The notes beneath the pieces were generated by a model. That model was not told the origin of the DNA, searched no databases, and worked only from the letters and a program-made list of their open reading frames with translations. A DNA stretch of 41,699 nucleotides from Rhodothermia bacterium (lineage in GTDB: Bacteria; Bacteroidota; Rhodothermia; Rhodothermales; JAAAOL01): positions 1-41,699 of the forward strand of contig JAUIDY010000050.1 in assembly GCA_030428385.1 (NCBI GenBank). Reading direction: 5' to 3'. Every line of letters starts with the position of its first letter. Position 1 is the first letter of the stretch. A program made the position numbers and the translations under genes. This document shows positions 14,792-23,783 of the stretch, piece after piece.

Positions 14792-16936
14792 TCAAAACGC
14801 AGCGTTTTCCATCAGCATCACATCGCTGGCGGCGTGGTCGACGGGGCTGTAGATGATGTGCTGTTCGTCGGGCGTGACGCTGAAACCCCAACGGTCGAAG
14901 GGCTGCGAGGGATTGATGGGCAGCTTGGTGACAAGGTCGGTGGTGCCCGTGGCGAAGTCGAAGCGGTGGACGTGCAGGCTGTCCAGCAGCCGCTCCTGGG
15001 TGACGTAATACAGCGCGTCATCGGTGAGGTCCCAGTATGCAGCGTCTGCCTCGGGAAGCCATGCTTCTTCGGTGCCGCCGGGCGTCTTACGCCACAGCCC
15101 TGCTGCGTGGGGACGGGTGAAGAACAAAGTGCCATCGGTGGCACGTTGCCCCTTGCGTGCACCCTGCTGCGTGACTTGTTCCGCCGGACCCCCACCGAGC
15201 GGTTGTTTCCACAGTTGCCAGGTCCCGGTGCGGTCAGAGGCGAAATAGATGGCGGTGCCGTCGGGGGACCAGCGGGGCGCTACTTCGTGCGCGGGGCTGT
15301 CGGTGAGGCGCTGCGGTGGGCCACCGGCGGCATCAATCCGGTAGAGGTCGGCGTCCTGGCCCTGATGCACTTCAAAAAGCAGCCACCGTCCGTCGGGCGA
15401 CCAACGCGGGCTGTTGATGCGTGTTGCGTTGATGGTTGTGAGTCGTAGTGGGTTGGCCCCGTCGCGGTCGCTGATCCACACGGCGTCCGTCCCCGTCCGG
15501 TTGGAGACAAACGCGATCTGGCGACCATTGGGCGAGACGCGGGGATGGCGGTCGGCTCGGGTGGAGGCAATCAGCCGCGTCGCCTCGGGGGAGGCGGCCT
15601 GGGTGCTCCCAATCGGCGTCTGCCACACATTAATCTCATACGCCCACGATACAAAGGCCATGCGGGTGCCATCGGGCGACAGCGTCAGGCTTCCGGGGTC
15701 GGCGACGGGGGCCGAGCGCAGCAAGGCAGGCGCGGTTTGACCATCGGGACTCAGCCGCCAAATGCCGCATGCCTCCGTGCGGCAGCCCGAGAGCAGCACA
15801 TCGCCGTCTGGGGTCCAGGCGAAACCGTTGATGCGGGCCTGTTCAGGAAGCAAGGGGCGGGGGGGAGTAGCCGGGGTGGTGAGGTCCAGCACATGTGCCA
15901 TGCCAAGGCCCCCATTGGTGTGTCGCATAAATAGCAACTGGGCGCCATCGCGGGAAAAAACAGGCATCGTGTCGCCAGCCTCCGTGGCAGCAGGCGTAGT
16001 GAGGGGACGCGTGCTGTAATCGGCGAGGTTCAGGGCGAAAAGCCGCTGGACCCGCAAGGCCGAGTCGGGCGCGGCGAAAACCACTTGCTGCCCGTCGGGC
16101 GACCACGCCAGCCCGGTAACCCGGCACGATGTGTCGATGAGTTTTCGCGAGGCCCCGCCTTGTGACGGGATGTGATATAAGCCACACGCCTGCTGCCCAT
16201 AGCTGAAATAGGCGAGGGACTCGCCATCGGGCGACCATGCGGGAAACAACTCGGCGCCCTGCTGCTGTGTGAGGGCGACCGGGGTTTCGGCGTGGATCTG
16301 CTGCACGAACAGGTTTGAAGGGACGCCCTCCTCATCGAAGGCCACAAACGCCAGCCGTTCGCCATCGGGCGAGAACGTCGGAGAAATCTCGATGCCGGGT
16401 AAAGTGGTGACGGGGCGCAGTGAGGGAGAAAGAAGCGAGGCAGTGGGTGTGAGGGTGGAGGAAAGCAGGACGGCTCCAAGAATAAAGAGGACGGTGCCTG
16501 CAAGGGTCCACGGGAGCCAGCGGCGGGCCGGGGTGGTTGTTGGCGCTGGCGTGGCAGGCATCGACACCGAAAATGTGGGCACGCCATCGCCGGAAGGAGC
16601 AGGCGGCGGGGCAACGGGAGGTGCGGTGTGGATCGGGGCAATCAGCCGGTAACCGACGCCGCGAATGGTCTCGATGACGCGCGGCTGCCGAGGGTCGTCG
16701 TCGAACAGCTTACGCAGGTCCGAGATGGCATTGGTCAGCGAATGCTCGGTGACGATGGTGTCTTCCCATACCGCATCCAGCAGTTCCTCGCGCGTGACCA
16801 CGTCGCCGCGCTGTTCGGCCAGCGAGACGAGCAGCCGCATGGTGCGGGGCTCCAGTGTGTGCGTGCCCGCCGGGCCCACCACCCGGTTCAGGCGGGGCTG
16901 GATTTGCCAGGCTCCGATAGAAAATGCAGCGGTCAT
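14792..16936 (-). CDS. One-component membrane regulator: winged helix, one TM, TolB/PD40 propeller
   Basis: 714 residues. Residues 1-102 form an OmpR/CadC-type winged helix (LEPRTMRLLVSLAEQRGDVV, REELLDAVWEDT, SLTNAISDLRKLF, VIETIRGVGYRLIAP). A Pro/Ala/Thr linker (103-138) leads to one membrane helix at about 140-160. The rest carries about ten PD40 blades with WSPDG-like motifs, as in TolB. This gives the ToxR/CadC topology: DNA binding in the cytoplasm, propeller in the periplasm, probably sensing a protein or ligand there. The gene is head-to-head with a secreted DUF1579-like gene across 214 bp, so that gene is the most likely target, alongside autoregulation. A close paralogue with the same arrangement is at 21642. 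Its last about 90 bp recur at 13151-13240. Confidence 0.93.
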   Translation of the reverse strand: MTAAFSIGAWQIQPRLNRVVGPAGTHTLEPRTMRLLVSLAEQRGDVVTREELLDAVWEDTIVTEHSLTNAISDLRKLFDDDPRQPRVIETIRGVGYRLIAPIHTAPPVAPPPAPSGDGVPTFSVSMPATPAPTTTPARRWLPWTLAGTVLFILGAVLLSSTLTPTASLLSPSLRPVTTLPGIEISPTFSPDGERLAFVAFDEEGVPSNLFVQQIHAETPVALTQQQGAELFPAWSPDGESLAYFSYGQQACGLYHIPSQGGASRKLIDTSCRVTGLAWSPDGQQVVFAAPDSALRVQRLFALNLADYSTRPLTTPAATEAGDTMPVFSRDGAQLLFMRHTNGGLGMAHVLDLTTPATPPRPLLPEQARINGFAWTPDGDVLLSGCRTEACGIWRLSPDGQTAPALLRSAPVADPGSLTLSPDGTRMAFVSWAYEINVWQTPIGSTQAASPEATRLIASTRADRHPRVSPNGRQIAFVSNRTGTDAVWISDRDGANPLRLTTINATRINSPRWSPDGRWLLFEVHQGQDADLYRIDAAGGPPQRLTDSPAHEVAPRWSPDGTAIYFASDRTGTWQLWKQPLGGGPAEQVTQQGARKGQRATDGTLFFTRPHAAGLWRKTPGGTEEAWLPEADAAYWDLTDDALYYVTQERLLDSLHVHRFDFATGTTDLVTKLPINPSQPFDRWGFSVTPDEQHIIYSPVDHAASDVMLMENAAF

Positions 16937-17072: not shown

Positions 17073-17150
17073 GATACGATGGTTGGCTATGCTTTGGTTG
17101 CCGCCTTCCTTTTTATGTCATCAACTATATCTCCCAAAGACCTGATCCGC

Positions 17151-18266
17151 ATGATGATCTTCAAGCCTGTCTTCCTGCTTGCCGCCCTGCTGGTGCTGCC
17201 GCTTGCCGCTCGCGCCCAGACCGCCAACGACGGTCACCTGTTTGACCAGGGCCGCGCCATGACCGAACGCAGCCCCCGCGCCTCCGACGTGATCGATCGT
17301 ATGAAAGGCTACCTCGGGCAGTGGGACGTCGCCGTCACGACCTATCCTACCGACACCACCACGGTTACGAGCCAGGGCCAGGCCGAGGTCACCTACATGA
17401 ACCGGGGCTATGCCTACCAGGAGCGTCTGCACGTGCCCGGTTACGACGCCGAAGGCACGGCAGCCAGCATGATGTCGTTTCTATCCTTCGATCCCACCAA
17501 CAACGTATGGGCACTCGGCGAAGCGAGCAGCTACACCGAGAGCATTAGCATGTACAACGGTGATTTCGAAGGCGGTAAACTGACGCTGGGCACTGTGCTC
17601 CGGGAGCGGGGTGGCACCCAACTGACGCATTACCGCCTTACCTACACCTTTGCGGGAAGCAACCAACTCACCATCTTGCTCGAATCGTCCACGGGCAACA
17701 CCACCGCGTGGAAACCGGTGGAGCAGCGCGTGTATCAGCGCCGGACACCCTCCGACACGTTTATGGCGACCATGGACGGGTATGGCGCGGCAGCGTCCGA
17801 CCTGCCGGAAGAAGCCCACGAGTTTGACTTCTTGCTAGGCACTTGGGATGCGGTACATAACATGCTGTTTGGCGGACAATGGATCCAGTTCCCCACCAAT
17901 GCCACCGCCGTGCGGGCCCTCGGTGGTAGCGCCATCCTGGAGCATTCGTGGTTCGACCTTGACCCCAACCTGCCCGATGCGGCGACCTCCATCATTCGCA
18001 TCTACAACCGATCCATGCGCCGTTGGGAGTCGCTCTATTTGCAGAACCGGAGCAATTCTTTGCTGTTTTTCGGTGGGGCGAAAGACGGGGAGGATCTGGT
18101 TCTGCATATGTTTGAATCGCATACCGCCGACCCGCCCATCAGCCGCTTTGTCTTCCACGACATCGGCACGGATACGTACGCGTGGTACGCCCAAAACAGC
18201 ACCGACCGGGGCCGCACCTTCAACAAGACGTGGACCATCGAGTTTACCCGACGGACAGGGGAGTAG
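17151..18266 (+). CDS. Secreted protein with two DUF1579-like (lipocalin-type) domains
   Basis: 371 residues from the ATG at 17151 (MMIFKPVFLL); the frame is open upstream into the divergent regulator's antisense. A clear signal peptide ends at AARAQ. Domain 1 (about 40-200) begins MKGYLGQWDVAVTTYP and domain 2 (about 225-370) begins EFDFLLGTWDAVHNML. Each shows the G-x-W-D start and repeated beta strands of DUF1579-like small-molecule-binding barrels, so the protein is probably a tandem duplication. It has no catalytic motif. It lies head-to-head with the winged-helix/PD40 regulator (14792-16936) and is the best candidate for its target. A single-domain relative lies at 19197-19748. Confidence 0.78.
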   Translation: MMIFKPVFLLAALLVLPLAARAQTANDGHLFDQGRAMTERSPRASDVIDRMKGYLGQWDVAVTTYPTDTTTVTSQGQAEVTYMNRGYAYQERLHVPGYDAEGTAASMMSFLSFDPTNNVWALGEASSYTESISMYNGDFEGGKLTLGTVLRERGGTQLTHYRLTYTFAGSNQLTILLESSTGNTTAWKPVEQRVYQRRTPSDTFMATMDGYGAAASDLPEEAHEFDFLLGTWDAVHNMLFGGQWIQFPTNATAVRALGGSAILEHSWFDLDPNLPDAATSIIRIYNRSMRRWESLYLQNRSNSLLFFGGAKDGEDLVLHMFESHTADPPISRFVFHDIGTDTYAWYAQNSTDRGRTFNKTWTIEFTRRTGE

Positions 18267-18276
18267 GACGGCGGAA

Positions 18277-19131
18277 TTAGGCGTCGGCGGGAAGTACCAA
18301 GAGGGCTTTGAGGATGGCGATGACCAACTCTTTGCGCTTTTGAGGCGGCCATTGCTCCCACACTTGCTCGCCTTCCATATTAAGGGCGTAGTAATAGACA
18401 TTGGAACCGCGCTCTACATACCCGACGAGCCAGCCCATCTCGCGGGTGGGCGTTACCTCCGCCGTACCGGTTTTTCCGCTCAGGCGGTAGGTGTCGGTTT
18501 CTTCCAGCACCATGATGGCCTTAAGGATCGCCGTGGTGCGTTCGGAGACGCCGAGATCACCCGTATAAACGCGGCGGAGGAACGCCACCTGCTCTTCAGG
18601 GGAAATCCGCAGGTCGCCTTCTAGCCAGAACAGGTCGACGGTGGGCGTTAAGGCTTGGTTGCCATAGGCAAACTGTGCGACGTACGCGTCCATGCGTTCG
18701 GGACCGATGCGGCGGGCGATTTCCTGATAGTACCAGTACACCGAGTTCTGAAATGCTGTGCGCAGCGTCGGGTCTTGTGTCCATGCCTCGGGCCACCATT
18801 CTTGCGGGGTGGTTTTATTCGGGTCAAACGGAAGAGAAAAATCCGGCCCGTCGGCCACTCCTGTTTCCAGCGCGATAAGGGTGTTGGGGATTTTAAACGT
18901 GGAGGCCGGGAGAAAGCGGGAGCGGGCGCGTTCGGGGTTATGGATGCGAATGTGTCCCGTTTGCCCGTCGACCAGCACAAACGTGCCGGGGCCATCCACG
19001 GAGGCAAAGAAGCTGTCGAGCACAACGGTTTCAACAAGGGGCGACGCCGGGGCTGGTGGTTCCGGGGGCGGCGGTTCGGCACACCCGACAAGCAGGACGA
19101 CAAGTAGCAGGGCAGGGAAAGACAGACGCAT
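18277..19131 (-). CDS. Class D (OXA-type) beta-lactamase, lipoprotein
   Basis: 284 residues from the ATG at 19131 (MRLSFPALLL), giving a lipoprotein signal with Cys17 in LLVGC. All class D landmarks are seen: STFK at 77-80 (nucleophile Ser77, Lys80 expected to be carboxylated), YGN at 156-158, Trp169 in FWLEGDLRISPEEQ, and KTGT at 220-223. The SxV motif is changed: the usual S-x-V is S-V-Y at 130-132 inside QNSVYWYYQEIARRIG. That Val normally lines the carboxylysine pocket. The enzyme hydrolyses beta-lactams in the periplasm, and lipidation would hold it on the membrane. No BlaR/BlaI genes or mobile sequences are adjacent, so it looks like an intrinsic chromosomal enzyme. It converges with the DUF1579-like gene, 10 bp away. 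Confidence 0.93.
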   Translation of the reverse strand: MRLSFPALLLVVLLVGCAEPPPPEPPAPASPLVETVVLDSFFASVDGPGTFVLVDGQTGHIRIHNPERARSRFLPASTFKIPNTLIALETGVADGPDFSLPFDPNKTTPQEWWPEAWTQDPTLRTAFQNSVYWYYQEIARRIGPERMDAYVAQFAYGNQALTPTVDLFWLEGDLRISPEEQVAFLRRVYTGDLGVSERTTAILKAIMVLEETDTYRLSGKTGTAEVTPTREMGWLVGYVERGSNVYYYALNMEGEQVWEQWPPQKRKELVIAILKALLVLPADA

Positions 19132-19196
19132 GAAGGGAGGCAAGAGGTGAAAGCCCAAAGACAACGGGAGGGCTCCTATGTTGCTCGGGTATGTCT

Positions 19197-19748
19197 TTAT
19201 TCTGGGGTGTCGTGCCGAACGTAGCGGGCGCGCTGGACGACTTGCCACGGGGCGTCGGCCCTAGGCGACATATAGAACGTCACCGAAAATGCCGAAGGGC
19301 TGAGGTCTGAGTAGACGTGTCGGGTTCGCAGCAGGCGGGTGCCGAGGTCGCGCTGCCAGGTGAACACCAGCGAATCGGCCTGCATTTGCCCCGCCGATTG
19401 GGTAAAGCCGCCATGTTCGGAGTCGATGCGGACGCGTTCGTAGTGGCCCATCATCGGTGCGCTGATCATGGTGAGCGCCTGAAAGGGGTGGTCATTCAGT
19501 GTGCCCTCAAAATGTTCAACCAGCACACAGCCCAGCACGTCCTGCGTGATCTGCGCCTGTGCTTGCGACTCCGCGAAGACACCGGGTGCGGTGCGATATG
19601 TCCAGGCAACGTCCCATGTCCCTTCGAGGGCTGTGAGTGGGCTGTCGGCCATAAGGTCACAGGCGGGTGTTTCGAAAGGCTTGGCGGTTGTCACAGAAGT
19701 CAAACAACCAAGGACAAGCAGGTTGATCAAAAAAGAGAAGGGGGTCAT
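19197..19748 (-). CDS. Secreted DUF1579-like protein
   Basis: 183 residues starting MTPFSFLINLLVLGC, a hydrophobic leader that could be a lipoprotein signal (VLGC) or an ordinary signal peptide ending near TTAKP. The mature part starts ALEGTWDVAWTYRTAPG and continues with beta strands (VLGCVLVEHFEGTL, then MMGHYERVRIDSEHGGF), the DUF1579/lipocalin-like pattern. It is transcribed in the same direction as the downstream beta-lactamase, 65 bp apart, and could share a transcript with it. The function is unknown; ligand binding is likely by fold. The 277 bp upstream (19749-20025) hold no recognisable gene. Confidence 0.75.
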   Translation of the reverse strand: MTPFSFLINLLVLGCLTSVTTAKPFETPACDLMADSPLTALEGTWDVAWTYRTAPGVFAESQAQAQITQDVLGCVLVEHFEGTLNDHPFQALTMISAPMMGHYERVRIDSEHGGFTQSAGQMQADSLVFTWQRDLGTRLLRTRHVYSDLSPSAFSVTFYMSPRADAPWQVVQRARYVRHDTPE

Positions 19749-20025
19749 AGCTGTTCTTTATGGCGGCGATGCAGCGCACGCGGTGGTTTTTTGGCTCCGG
19801 CCACAGGTTTCCGGTGGCATCCATTGCCATGCCATACGGACGCTGTAGCACCGCCGTTGTGGCAAGGGATACCTCCGTTGTTCTCCAGAGACGGTAGCGA
19901 TCCATTCTTGAAAAAGATACCGGGCCGAGGTAAGACATGCAGCATGCAAGAATGTTGCTTTTTTAGCACCAATGTTAGTGCGCTGACAAAACACGGGGCT
20001 CCTTAACTCTTCTCGATAGAACAGA

Positions 20026-21489
20026 TCACTTTGCTAACGTTGTTATCGTGTGCCAGGGGGTAAGCGGAAGATGCTGGGCTGCAGTTTGTTCAGGGTTTAC
20101 CCTTTCTCGCATCGCGGCGCGGTAGACATCGGTTGCATACGAACTGGGTTCGTCGAGGGTTTGAATGTAGTCGCCCGCCCACAGGAAACGATCCGGTTGG
20201 ACGAATGCGTTGATGGCTCCCTCACTCCCAATGCCATCGAGGGGGTAAAGCAGTAGCTTCCCGTTTGCAAACGAAGTCGCTTTTTCGACGCCCCGGAAGG
20301 AAAAGGTGACCTCACGGCGTCGTGCCTCCAACACGTCCGGCGCGCGTGTCCACGGACGCTCCACCACGCGGCGCAGCAACGACTCCGACATCGCATGCGA
20401 AACCACGGTGGCTCCTTGTGCCACCCAATAGCGCACCCCGGCAATGTGGGGCCAGGCCAGATCTGTTACGACGAGCACAATGGGTGTGTCATCGGTCAGG
20501 TTGAACAGTTGTTTGGCCCAGTCATGGTCTTGCTGTGCACGGGCTTCTCCCTGGGTGGCATCCAGGACATATAGCGTTCCCTCCAGGTAGGTGATGGCTT
20601 CGGTGTACCCTCGGTTTGCAAGGAGGTAGGTCTGTTCTGATACCTGCACAGTGTCGGGAGGAGTGGGGCGTAAGAAGGCGGGCGTTTGGTCAGGCAACGC
20701 CGGGATATGTTCATCAAGGCGCAGGGGCATCTCTTCGGAGGCAGTGGCCCACTCCATGATGCCTGTCGTGCGAAGTATTTCAGCCTCGCCATCCACCAGA
20801 CGGTTGCTGGAGAGCGGCACAAACGCGGTATCCATTTGCCACCAGGTGGCATACACGTATTCGACGTGCACCTGTCCCCACAAGTAGTGGGCTTCTTCTC
20901 GATCCAGCTTCACCGGAAAGTGGGTTTTGGGGTCAAGATACAACCGCTCGGGGCCCGTTTCCGTGGCACGTTCCAGGACAAGGCGGGGGAAATCGCGGTA
21001 CGTGCATTGCTGCTCCAGGACAAGGTGGTCGCTTTGTTGAAAATCGAAAAGCACCGCCCACGGATTCAGGTGGCGATCAGCGCCAAAAGAAAAGGGAACA
21101 GGTATCATCTGGTCGTCGCGTACCATCACGTTCTTGGTCGCATTGCGCATGACGGTCATTTCCGTGCGTCGTCCCATGCCGGGATAGGTGAGGCGCATCG
21201 TGCTGCGTTCCGTGCCGGTAGACGGATCATACAACAGGTCGTGGTCCTGCATCGCCATCAGGTAGGGCGGATAGGAACGGTCAGACTGATAGTTCTGGTT
21301 AAGGACATCGATGGTGACATAATGAAGCACCCGGTTGGCAGCATGATTGAGGCCTACGGCGTCGATCGCGTGTTGCAGCACCGCCTGGGCGTCGTGTCCG
21401 TGAACGGGCGTGCAGGCTTCATCGGTTTGTGCATAAAGTGGATGGGAGAAACAAAGCGAAACAACCAGGAAAAAGAGGAGGCGATACAT
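20026..21489 (-). CDS. Secreted metallo-beta-lactamase-fold protein lacking most metal ligands
   Basis: 487 residues from the ATG at 21489 (MYRLLFF) with a signal peptide ending at PLYAQ. Residues about 30-260 resemble the beta-rich N-terminal domain that precedes MBL-fold hydrolases in Bacteroidota. Residues about 285-450 follow the MBL fold order: VLDATQGEARAQQ, VLVVTDLAWPHIAG, VRYWVAQGATVVSH, and a final FLWAGDYIQ with Asp440. The expected THxHxDHxGG reads TDLAWPHIAG, so three of the four ligands (two His and the Asp) are replaced and only His348 remains. The later G-H-(S/T) His is also absent. It is probably a non-catalytic binding protein or has an unusual mechanism. It is head-to-head with the regulator at 21642 across 152 bp. 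Confidence 0.72.
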   Translation of the reverse strand: MYRLLFFLVVSLCFSHPLYAQTDEACTPVHGHDAQAVLQHAIDAVGLNHAANRVLHYVTIDVLNQNYQSDRSYPPYLMAMQDHDLLYDPSTGTERSTMRLTYPGMGRRTEMTVMRNATKNVMVRDDQMIPVPFSFGADRHLNPWAVLFDFQQSDHLVLEQQCTYRDFPRLVLERATETGPERLYLDPKTHFPVKLDREEAHYLWGQVHVEYVYATWWQMDTAFVPLSSNRLVDGEAEILRTTGIMEWATASEEMPLRLDEHIPALPDQTPAFLRPTPPDTVQVSEQTYLLANRGYTEAITYLEGTLYVLDATQGEARAQQDHDWAKQLFNLTDDTPIVLVVTDLAWPHIAGVRYWVAQGATVVSHAMSESLLRRVVERPWTRAPDVLEARRREVTFSFRGVEKATSFANGKLLLYPLDGIGSEGAINAFVQPDRFLWAGDYIQTLDEPSSYATDVYRAAMRERVNPEQTAAQHLPLTPWHTITTLAK

Positions 21490-21525
21490 CACACAAGGAG
21501 TTGGTGGAGAACAGACAACGTGCAA

Positions 21526-21551
21526 CCTGTACCCACCTTCTCAGGTACAGG
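21526..21551. promoter_or_regulatory. Perfect 8-bp inverted repeat in the divergent promoter region
   Basis: CCTGTACC at 21526-21533 and GGTACAGG at 21544-21551 form a perfect inverted repeat with a 10-bp gap. It lies 37-62 bp upstream of the minus-strand gene start at 21489. It could be an operator for a dimeric regulator or a hairpin in that gene's 5' leader. Confidence 0.4.
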
Positions 21552-21591
21552 CAGCGGCATATGAACATCGTCTCTTTGCAGGGCCAAAGTC

Positions 21592-21635
21592 CTGAGAAGT
21601 CGCTGAGACTGTCCTGAAATCCGCCTGAGAACCGC
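21592..21635 (+). promoter_or_regulatory. Four tandem 11-bp CTGA(G/A) repeats just before the winged-helix gene
   Basis: CTGAG starts at 21592, 21603 and 21625 and CTGAA at 21614, an exact 11-bp period. The third base group after the core also tends to end in C/G. The array ends seven bases before the ATG at 21642. OmpR/PhoB-type winged helices bind head-to-tail direct repeats one helical turn apart, so this is a strong candidate binding site for the regulator encoded immediately downstream (autoregulation and control of the divergent gene). Confidence 0.65.
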
Positions 21636-21641
21636 GCTTTT

Positions 21642-23783
21642 ATGGAAACCAGAGAGTCCCTTCTGTCCCTGCCCGCTGAGAGCTTTGAAATGCTGGGGTG
21701 GATGGTGACGCCTGCGCTGCATCGCATGGAGCGGGGCGGAACGGTGCGGCTGCTGGAACCGAAAGTCGTGGAGGTGTTGGCGGTGCTGGCGGCACGGGCC
21801 GGGACGCCTATTACCCGGCAGGAGTTGCTGGATACGGTCTGGGCCGACGTGGTGGTGACGGATGATGTGCTGACGCGGTGTATCTCGGAGCTGCGCAAAC
21901 TTTTCGGCGACGACGCCCGCAATCCTCATGTGATTGAGACGTTGCCGCGCATTGGCTATCGCTTGCTGGCTCCGGTGCGGTGGCTGACGGACCCGTCGGC
22001 TTCTGGCGATTCATTGGGCTCGTTGCCCCTTCCTGTACCTGTACCGACGACTGCGCCCGCAGGCATCAAAAAGACAGGGCATCCTGTCCGATGGATGGTG
22101 GGGGCTGTTGTTGGTGTGCTGGTCTTGGGACTGGGCTTTTGGATGGGCAGCCTGGAGCATGAGGATTCCGCACCTGTTTTCGTATCGCCAGTGGCATTGC
22201 GGCCCCTCACCACCGATCCGGCACAAGAAGTACACGCCCGCGTGTCGCCCGATGGGGAACGCGTGGCCTATGTCAGCGATGCCTCCGGGGCGTTTAACCT
22301 CTACCTGACCGATTTCCAGCCGGGAAGCACGCCGCTACAATTGACTGATGACCCAGTGCCTGAGCGAAGCCCCGTCTGGTCGCCGGATGGTACCGAAATC
22401 GCCTTCATTCGTCAACATGAGAACGTGTGCCAGGTCCTTCGGATGCCCGCCCTCGGGGGGCCTGAAACCCTCGTCGCGTCGTGTGCCTCGGCACGCTATG
22501 CCACCCTCGACTGGTCGCCGGATGGAAGCTGGCTGGTACTGGATGATCAGATGCCAGGCGAGACAGGCACGGTGCTGCATCGCCTCGATCTTGAAACGGG
22601 GCACTTGGCTCCGTTTAACTATGACCGCACGGGCAGCCGAGGCGATTATTATCCGCAGGTCTCGCCCGACGGGACCCGGCTTTCGTTCTTGCGCAGTTTG
22701 GGCGAGGGGCAAACCGACTTGTTTGTGTTGCACCTCGCGGACGGAGAGGTGGAGCGCCTCACCACGTTGTTGCAACCGATCAGTGCGCAGGCGTGGTCGC
22801 CGGATGGTACCGCGATTTTCTTCATCGAGGTAGTTAACGGACAGCCCATGTTACGCCGCTATGATGTGGCGACGGCGACCACGACCTGGGTGCCAGTGCT
22901 CGACGTTGGCTATCGGTTGAGCATAGGCAGCGAACGGATGGTGTTCGAGCAGCGCACCGTACGGATGAACTTGTACCGTGTGGAGCAAGACGAGGTGCTG
23001 ACTCCGTTGGCCGCTTCGTCTGCAACCGATAGGTTGCCCACGTTCTCTCCCGACGGCCAGCGCCTTGCCTTTCTTTCAAACCGGAGCGGTTCCTATCAGG
23101 TGTGGGTCCGTCGGGCAGAAGGCGGCTTGCCGCAACCCCTCACGGCTTTAAACGGCGTCGTTTTTTCGCCCCCGCACTGGTCACCCGACGGCCAGCGTCT
23201 GGTGCTGACCACGTTTGAAGAAGGCCAGGCCGAGGTGTATGTGGTGGATGCGTTCGGAGACAAACCCCGTTTGCTTACCGATCACCCTTCCAATGAGGTC
23301 TATCCCAGTTTTTCAGCCGACGGACGCTGGGTGTATTTTGGCTCGGATCGGACAGGGTCGATGGAGATTTGGAAGCAGCCCGTGGGGGGCGGTGAAGCCA
23401 GGCAGGTAACAACGCAGGGTGGCCTGATGGCGCTGGAAGCGCCGGATGGGACGGCGCTGTATTATACCAAAGAAGGGGTGCCGGGTGTGTGGAAAAAGGA
23501 AGACGCGGCACAAGAGCAGTTGGTACAACCTGCCGTAGACCTTTCCATGCTAGGGCGTTGGTGGCCCAGCCCTGAGGGTTTGGTTGCTTTGGTCGAGCAG
23601 CCGTTCGAACGAACGACCCATCATCTTATCGTGACGAACGCGAGAAAGACGGACACGCTACGGGTTTTGCACGACCTTCGGGTGGGGAGCGGGAGTGCTT
23701 TTCATCCGGCAACGCAGCAACTGGTCGTCCCCCGGATCGATCACTACGAGGCCGACTTGCAGTGGATGCCTGTGCCTCATTAG
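21642..23783 (+). CDS. One-component membrane regulator: winged helix, one TM, TolB/PD40 propeller (paralogue)
   Basis: 713 residues. The winged helix spans residues about 16-112 (LLEPKVVEVLAVLAARAGT, RQELLDTVWADV, VLTRCISELRKLFGDD, VIETLPRIGYRLLAPV). A linker leads to one membrane helix at about 150-170 (WMVGAVVGVLVLGLGFWMG). The periplasmic part carries at least eight PD40 blades with WSPDG/FSPDG motifs. Architecture, length and gene arrangement match the regulator at 14792-16936, though the C-terminal sequence differs, so these are old paralogues. Four phased 11-bp repeats lie just before the start. The likely regulon is itself plus the divergent secreted MBL-fold gene. What the propeller senses is unknown. 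Confidence 0.93.
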   Translation: METRESLLSLPAESFEMLGWMVTPALHRMERGGTVRLLEPKVVEVLAVLAARAGTPITRQELLDTVWADVVVTDDVLTRCISELRKLFGDDARNPHVIETLPRIGYRLLAPVRWLTDPSASGDSLGSLPLPVPVPTTAPAGIKKTGHPVRWMVGAVVGVLVLGLGFWMGSLEHEDSAPVFVSPVALRPLTTDPAQEVHARVSPDGERVAYVSDASGAFNLYLTDFQPGSTPLQLTDDPVPERSPVWSPDGTEIAFIRQHENVCQVLRMPALGGPETLVASCASARYATLDWSPDGSWLVLDDQMPGETGTVLHRLDLETGHLAPFNYDRTGSRGDYYPQVSPDGTRLSFLRSLGEGQTDLFVLHLADGEVERLTTLLQPISAQAWSPDGTAIFFIEVVNGQPMLRRYDVATATTTWVPVLDVGYRLSIGSERMVFEQRTVRMNLYRVEQDEVLTPLAASSATDRLPTFSPDGQRLAFLSNRSGSYQVWVRRAEGGLPQPLTALNGVVFSPPHWSPDGQRLVLTTFEEGQAEVYVVDAFGDKPRLLTDHPSNEVYPSFSADGRWVYFGSDRTGSMEIWKQPVGGGEARQVTTQGGLMALEAPDGTALYYTKEGVPGVWKKEDAAQEQLVQPAVDLSMLGRWWPSPEGLVALVEQPFERTTHHLIVTNARKTDTLRVLHDLRVGSGSAFHPATQQLVVPRIDHYEADLQWMPVPH

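Follow-up and report, generated by a model that had tools for sequence, protein, structure and literature searches.

What role can a secreted MBL-fold protein play when most of its expected zinc motif has been replaced and a membrane regulator is encoded divergently beside it? This question is raised by a gene of a Rhodothermia bacterium that lies in a 41,699-nucleotide stretch of DNA, the whole of which was analysed and is referred to here as the window. The original prediction, made from the letters of the window, hypothesised that the conserved exported pseudoenzyme could act as a signalling ligand or receptor. We followed up this hypothesis by structure modelling, by a survey of homologues and by an analysis of the genes encoded next to them.

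The focal gene and its product

The focal gene was present as a single copy in its own genome, and the features of the locus are listed in Table 1. The N-terminus of the focal protein was a Sec-type signal sequence, MYRLLFFLVVSLCFSHPLYAQ, in line with the predicted secretion, and no lipobox was seen in this signal peptide. No Pfam family, PF00753 and LolA-type families included, matched the focal protein at E values up to 1, and the sole NCBIfam match, to the class B core, was below threshold (18.5 bits vs. a cut-off of 100). The score of a homologue (L002) with PF00753 was likewise below the cut-off (14.0 vs. 22.7 bits). No solved structure was matched by sequence at E values up to 1. The focal family is unnamed and lies outside all Pfam and NCBIfam families. 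A tblastn search for carriage of the gene among 72,556 plasmid records gave no match, and a scan of positions 19700-21800 for sigma-70 promoters found none (0.8 expected).

Table 1. Coordinates of the focal gene, its parts and the adjoining regulatory features in the window.
Feature	Positions	Strand	Basis or details
Focal gene, exported two-domain MBL-fold pseudoenzyme	20026..21489	minus	487-aa ORF, start at 21489
Sec signal peptide, ca. residues 1-21	21427..21489	minus	Sequence and hydrophobic segment 4-22
Predicted LolA/LolB-fold N-terminal domain, residues 24-268	20686..21420	minus	Model and structural matches
Predicted C-terminal MBL-fold domain, residues 274-487	20029..20670	minus	AlphaFold2 model and structural match
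TDLAWPHIAG in place of THxHxDHxGG, residues 342-351	20437..20466	minus	Alignments
Asp440, bridging D221 position	20170..20172	minus	Invariant in 20 members
His473, H263 position, in QHLPLTPW	20071..20073	minus	Invariant in 20 members
Intergenic region between focal gene and regulator, 152 bp	21490..21641	.	Divergent gene pair
Four [C/G]CTGA[A/G]A copies in exact 11-bp steps	21591..21630	plus	Starts at 21591, 21602, 21613 and 21624
Divergent membrane regulator	21642..23783	plus	Trans_reg_C winged helix, TM 153-171, periplasmic PD40/TolB-like propeller

An MBL fold with an altered zinc site

An AlphaFold2 model of the focal protein was built from 45 aligned sequences (mean pLDDT, 92; pTM, 0.89). 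The C-terminal domain of the model matched Bacillus cereus BcII C221D (3knr_B; Z, 19.2; rmsd, 2.7; 188 aligned), and its top Foldseek match was CphA (1x8i; E, 4e-9). Structure prediction, proposed earlier as a check, thus returned the MBL fold and not its absence. While this fold is shared with CphA and other B1/B2 beta-lactamases (Z of ca. 19 to BcII), identities were only 9-18% among the matches listed, and the focal protein is without the zinc motif; it is not expected to hydrolyse beta-lactams.

The translation confirmed that TDLAWPHIAG occupies the place where the zinc motif was expected. In alignments with canonical two-domain members, the ligands H116, H118 and D120 were replaced by D343, A345 and P347, respectively, and H348 occupied the H121 position. 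At the H196 equivalent, where canonical members carry His, the focal DGIGSEGA has none. Residues H348, D440, H473, P347, E423 and W479 were invariant in 20 aligned family members, and H473 aligned with the C-terminal His of 33/33 canonical rows. The Asp of the predicted GD motif was present, in AGD at residues 438-440. The earlier view of a mostly erased zinc motif thus holds for the first zinc site and D120 but not for H348, D440 and H473; similarly, the later His of the fold, thought to be absent, is missing at the H196 position and retained at the H263 position. These alignments indicate the loss of the first metal site and a second site that is without D120 but keeps three ligand positions.

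Homologues and the loss of the zinc motif

A scan of the collection found two relatives, one in a Gemmatimonadales MAG (44%) and one in an Acidobacteria MAG (42%). Whole-genome searches found the close family in 17 of 395 sampled Gemmatimonadota genomes, in one of 396 sampled Acidobacteriota genomes, and in one of 394 genomes from the phylum to which the window belongs, which was the source genome itself. Close homologues were found at 21 loci in 18 other genomes, all of Gemmatimonadota or Acidobacteriota. None of the 21 carried the H-H-D-H motif: the four positions read D-A-P-H in 17 and SVPH, TIPH or NVPH in three, and one (L109) is a broken frame that is misaligned in the motif region. The survey therefore bore out that close homologues share the loss of the zinc motif (21/21), and the possibility that the focal gene is a single degenerate case was ruled out.

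Two further sets have the same two domains, namely a canonical set of 33 rows with H-H-D-H, D and H, and a wider degenerate set of 17 rows that are mostly TSDAWPH- or SDPWAH-like. The family comprised 73 rows, from which L059 and L033 were dropped since their fetched regions held no focal match, leaving 71 counted. Two of the 17 wider degenerate rows are oddities (L049 and L032), and one has a partial kinase neighbour (L089/L150); in addition to L109, L110 is a broken frame, and it was kept in both the full and the strict counts given below. The canonical members, exported LolA-MBL hydrolases of Acidobacteriota and Gemmatimonadota, can be aligned with the focal family across both domains and share with it the RxxxA.G, PD and GD landmarks; unlike the focal family, they keep H-H-D-H, H196, D221 and H263. 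Partly altered zinc motifs were seen in L032 (GHYHPHYLGG), L033 (GHHHPWYLGG) and L049 (THWHYDTVAG), which may represent further independent losses. At L108:7610-11103 (minus strand), a pseudo-MBL gene belonging to the close clade lies in tandem with another from the wider degenerate group.

In a tree calculated without the motif columns, and leaving out L109, L110, L039, L083 and L089, the close family formed one clade (support 100), and the 33 degenerate rows tested (without L049 and L032) all fell on one side of a branch with a support of 56. The simplest reading of this tree is that the zinc site was probably lost in one ancient event, with the support of 56 for that branch. Two near homologues differed by a dN of 0.035 and a dS of 0.21 (dN/dS, ca. 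0.16), indicating purifying selection on the protein. We are highly confident that the focal protein belongs to a conserved branch of exported pseudoenzymes, set apart from the zinc enzymes of the same two-domain architecture.

The retained residues bear on whether the branch is a remodelled enzyme, in which H348, D440 and H473, together with E423 or D343, would coordinate one metal ion or make up a catalytic site without metal, giving an enzyme of new chemistry. The invariance of H348, D440, H473 and E423 while H116, H118, D120 and H196 have gone, as well as the top match to CphA, is consistent with this, and mononuclear MBLs that use only the Zn2 side exist in subclass B2. On the other hand, most members have Pro in place of D120, which is a key ligand and acts as general base, and D343 is not invariant, being Ser, Thr or Asn in three close homologues. 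Moreover, the SPAH subclade of the wider degenerate group has Gln at the H263 position, so that not all of the degenerate branch has the H348/D440/H473 triad. A remodelled enzyme of this kind appears improbable.

A LolA-type N-terminal domain

When modelled alone (pLDDT, 93.4), the N-terminal domain matched 3bk5 (Z, 17.1; rmsd, 3.6; 204 aligned), 3buu_B of the LolA superfamily (Z, 15.4) and LolA3 (9tp6_A; Z, 15.0; Foldseek E, 7.8e-8). The model had the half-open beta-barrel of the LolA fold, and many LolA/LolB rows were among its structural matches; the match to RseB was lower than these (2p4b_A; Z, 7.4; rmsd, 5.8). Going by the model, the focal exported pseudoenzyme probably binds lipids. The canonical zinc-motif members also carry a LolA-like domain, which is therefore not special to the pseudoenzymes, and this counts against reading the protein as a sensor.

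Linkage to LytS/LytTR genes in relatives

The original prediction also proposed to survey whether homologues share the divergent regulator found beside the focal gene. They do not: the window was the only place where a close homologue had a regulator with a winged helix and a propeller as its partner, and matches resembling the window's regulator also occurred near the canonical loci L160 and L170, so the idea of the same regulator everywhere was rejected. Most relatives had either no recognisable partner or a LytS/LytTR two-component pair. Linkage was defined as a LytS-type histidine kinase (PF06580) or a LytTR regulator within 2.5 kb of the gene, with neighbours identified by HMM scans of six frames; GntR (L100), AraC (L106) and Ser/Thr kinase (L107) genes beside close homologues were left out of the counts.

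Such a neighbour was present at 8/21 close and 6/17 wider degenerate loci but at 0/33 canonical loci. When pooled, the difference between degenerate and canonical loci (14/38 vs. 0/33) gave a Fisher P value of 4e-5, the strict counts without L049, L032, L089/L150 and L109 (close, 7/20; wider, 5/14; canonical, 0/33; pooled, 12/34 vs. 0/33) gave 1.5e-4, and stratification by survey (Acidobacteriota, 3/8 vs. 0/25; Gemmatimonadota, 11/28 vs. 0/8) gave a one-sided exact P value of 3.7e-4, all of which are optimistic because the rows are related by descent. Since degeneracy probably arose once, only one to three pairs were usable for comparing it with linkage on independent origins, and a redrawn genome sample consisted mostly of the same genomes and contained no new close homologue.

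The background of PF06580 in the 18 close-set genomes was ca. 1.24 per Mb (101 matches in ca. 81.5 Mb in total). Among the 21 close loci, ca. 0.2 adjacent kinases were expected, while seven, full-length or cut by a contig end, were observed. In one assembly (G954), the neighbour of the close homologue was the sole PF06580 match. PF06580-type kinases were also present in 34 of the 39 genomes of the control set. These observations indicate that the tie of the branch to membrane regulators is non-random.

It could still be supposed that the neighbours are coincidental or the gene a decaying paralogue, the linkage being an artefact of sampling genomes rich in kinases, and the protein having no special role. 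The linkage is indeed partial, with no LytS/LytTR gene within 2.5 kb at 13 of the 21 close loci, and the rows share descent. Against this stand the excess of adjacent kinases over expectation and the surroundings of 34 other PF06580 loci in seven close-set genomes, only one of which (L259) lay near an MBL relative, itself degenerate (SDPWAH); decay is at odds with the low dN/dS. This explanation, already disfavoured, is very improbable.

The gene order was gene-kinase-regulator at L003, L102 and L111, and also at L002, where it was cut by the contig end; it was kinase-regulator-gene at L098, L113, L149 and L151, and divergent at L092, L093 and L099. Since the orders differ, one frozen arrangement does not account for the linkage. 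A crude scan of hydropathy predicted two to four membrane segments, and no large domain outside the cytoplasm, in the 11 adjacent kinases that were examined, suggesting that they have no obvious sensor of their own. These kinases were scattered among others on a tree (8 changes vs. 9.9 in shuffles), which ruled out that they form one clade; as they are not one lineage, there is no sign of tight co-evolution with the pseudoenzyme. At L109:4802-6748 (plus strand), the N-terminal part of a close homologue is joined to a LytTR DNA-binding domain, and this frame represents a fusion, or else a gene-kinase-regulator operon that was collapsed during assembly.

The window's own regulator and the shared intergenic region

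The predicted membrane regulator beside the focal gene is real. With a Trans_reg_C domain, one predicted TM segment and six PD40 stretches, it has a CadC/ToxR-like layout. The phased repeats in the intergenic region scored higher at lag 11 than any other part of the window, and five copies of the motif, which was chosen after looking, were found in the 152-bp gap vs. 0.12 expected. Since PhoB-type winged helices bind 11-bp direct repeats, the four phased copies are a candidate operator for a winged helix of the PhoB/CadC type. That such an operator is common to sister regulators was rejected, as the lag-11 scores were 13-18 in seven other upstream regions and 19 for the second regulator of the window, compared with 21 here.

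Among the 24 Trans_reg_C matches in the source genome, nine were of the long type. Sister long wHTH-PD40 regulators of this genome (L262, L264 and L265) are divergent to unrelated signal-peptide genes, which suggests a genome-wide pairing of regulators with exported genes. The second winged-helix-TM-PD40 regulator of the window (14792-16936, minus strand) is divergent to the frame at 17127-18266 (plus strand), which by eye resembles the DUF1579-type gene at 19197-19748 and matched no family. Two genes downstream of the focal gene and on the same strand, 18280-19158 (minus strand) encodes an exported class D beta-lactamase-like protein with a likeness to the sensor domain of BlaR1 as well (NF012161, 226.6 bits vs. 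a cut-off of 250; NF000326, 180 bits).

The exported protein may instead be a regulated effector, that is, a lipid- or lipoprotein-handling protein, dead or not, which is a mere target of the adjoining membrane regulator. The divergent arrangement, the candidate operator repeats between the two genes and the LolA fold of the N-terminal domain are compatible with this explanation, and we keep it high mainly because the sister regulators, the one at 14792-16936 among them, are divergent to other exported genes. It leaves unexplained both the LytS/LytTR bias of the degenerate loci over the canonical ones and the missing sensor domain of the adjacent kinases, and overall we consider it rather unlikely.

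An accessory sensor as the proposed role

The reading to which we give the most weight, at a probability of roughly 0.4, is that the exported pseudoenzyme, in the manner of RseB/MucB, is an accessory sensor of the membrane regulator next to it. The linkage to LytS/LytTR genes and the RseB-like fold of the N-terminal domain both support a signalling role, and the phased repeats between the focal gene and the regulator were counted in favour of the accessory sensor. We infer the function from the linkage, and the steps after export are put forward on that basis. Once in the periplasm, the protein would bind a lipophilic or envelope-derived ligand through its LolA-type domain, either alone or together with the altered MBL pocket. 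The protein would then serve as an accessory sensor of the membrane regulator encoded alongside, that is, of LytS/LytTR pairs in Gemmatimonadota and Acidobacteriota and of the CadC/ToxR-like winged-helix-TM-propeller regulator in the source genome. The activity of the kinase or regulator would be set by the state of the ligand, as that of MucA/RseA is by lipid-bound MucB/RseB, and the regulator may feed back on the promoter of the pseudoenzyme, here via the four 11-bp-phased repeats.

Two properties of the window's regulator weigh against this proposal. With a large propeller of its own in the periplasm, the regulator may do without a partner, and the divergence of its sisters to unrelated exported genes fits pairs of regulator and target equally well. 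A more far-reaching form of the accessory-sensor reading, which we offer tentatively and regard as doubtful, is a new three-component type of envelope signalling, in which an exported LolA-MBL zinc enzyme that lost its catalytic site, most simply once, would now be a periplasmic lipid-type sensor for different membrane regulators (LytS/LytTR in Gemmatimonadota and Acidobacteriota, the winged-helix-TM-propeller regulator here) and complete sensor-less kinases.

Comparison with known systems

RseB/MucB are periplasmic lipid-sensing regulators of sigma-E/AlgU and, like the focal protein, have a periplasmic LolA-type fold. They differ from it in lacking an MBL domain, in belonging to another sequence family and in having an anti-sigma factor, not a histidine kinase, as the partner. 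According to an extract of PMC7400510, the hydrophobic cavity of MucB senses lipids and releases MucA, thereby controlling a membrane regulator. By analogy, a LolA-type fold may be capable of the work proposed here.

PqsE is cytoplasmic, and its partner RhlR is a DNA-binding LuxR-type receptor, unlike the membrane regulators of the focal family. An extract of PMC12077149 describes the RhlR partnership of PqsE, a Pseudomonas MBL-fold protein, as separable from catalysis. Unlike the focal protein, PqsE keeps HxHxDH, binds iron and has a single domain. This analogy suggests that an MBL-fold protein can be the partner of a regulator.

Exported accessory proteins whose genes adjoin those of a membrane regulator or of a two-component system are described for ToxR/ToxS, VtrA/VtrC and DbfQ-DbfRS in extracts of PMC9214523 and PMC12714742. 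Unlike the focal protein, these accessory proteins are small, have other folds and are without an MBL-derived domain. A literature search of open-licence PMC articles found no published report of an MBL pseudoenzyme paired with LytTR systems. MBL pseudoenzymes and accessory sensors of the LolA/RseB type are both kinds already known.

Bacterial pseudoenzymes for which the enzyme ancestor is clear, the loss can be traced and a candidate for a new role exists are few. The branch offers a way to ask how a secreted zinc hydrolase turns into a signalling part. For LytS/LytTR systems in which the kinases are without a sensor domain and few signals are known, it also provides a candidate for the sensing part, and it would caution against annotating such proteins as MBL hydrolases or resistance genes.
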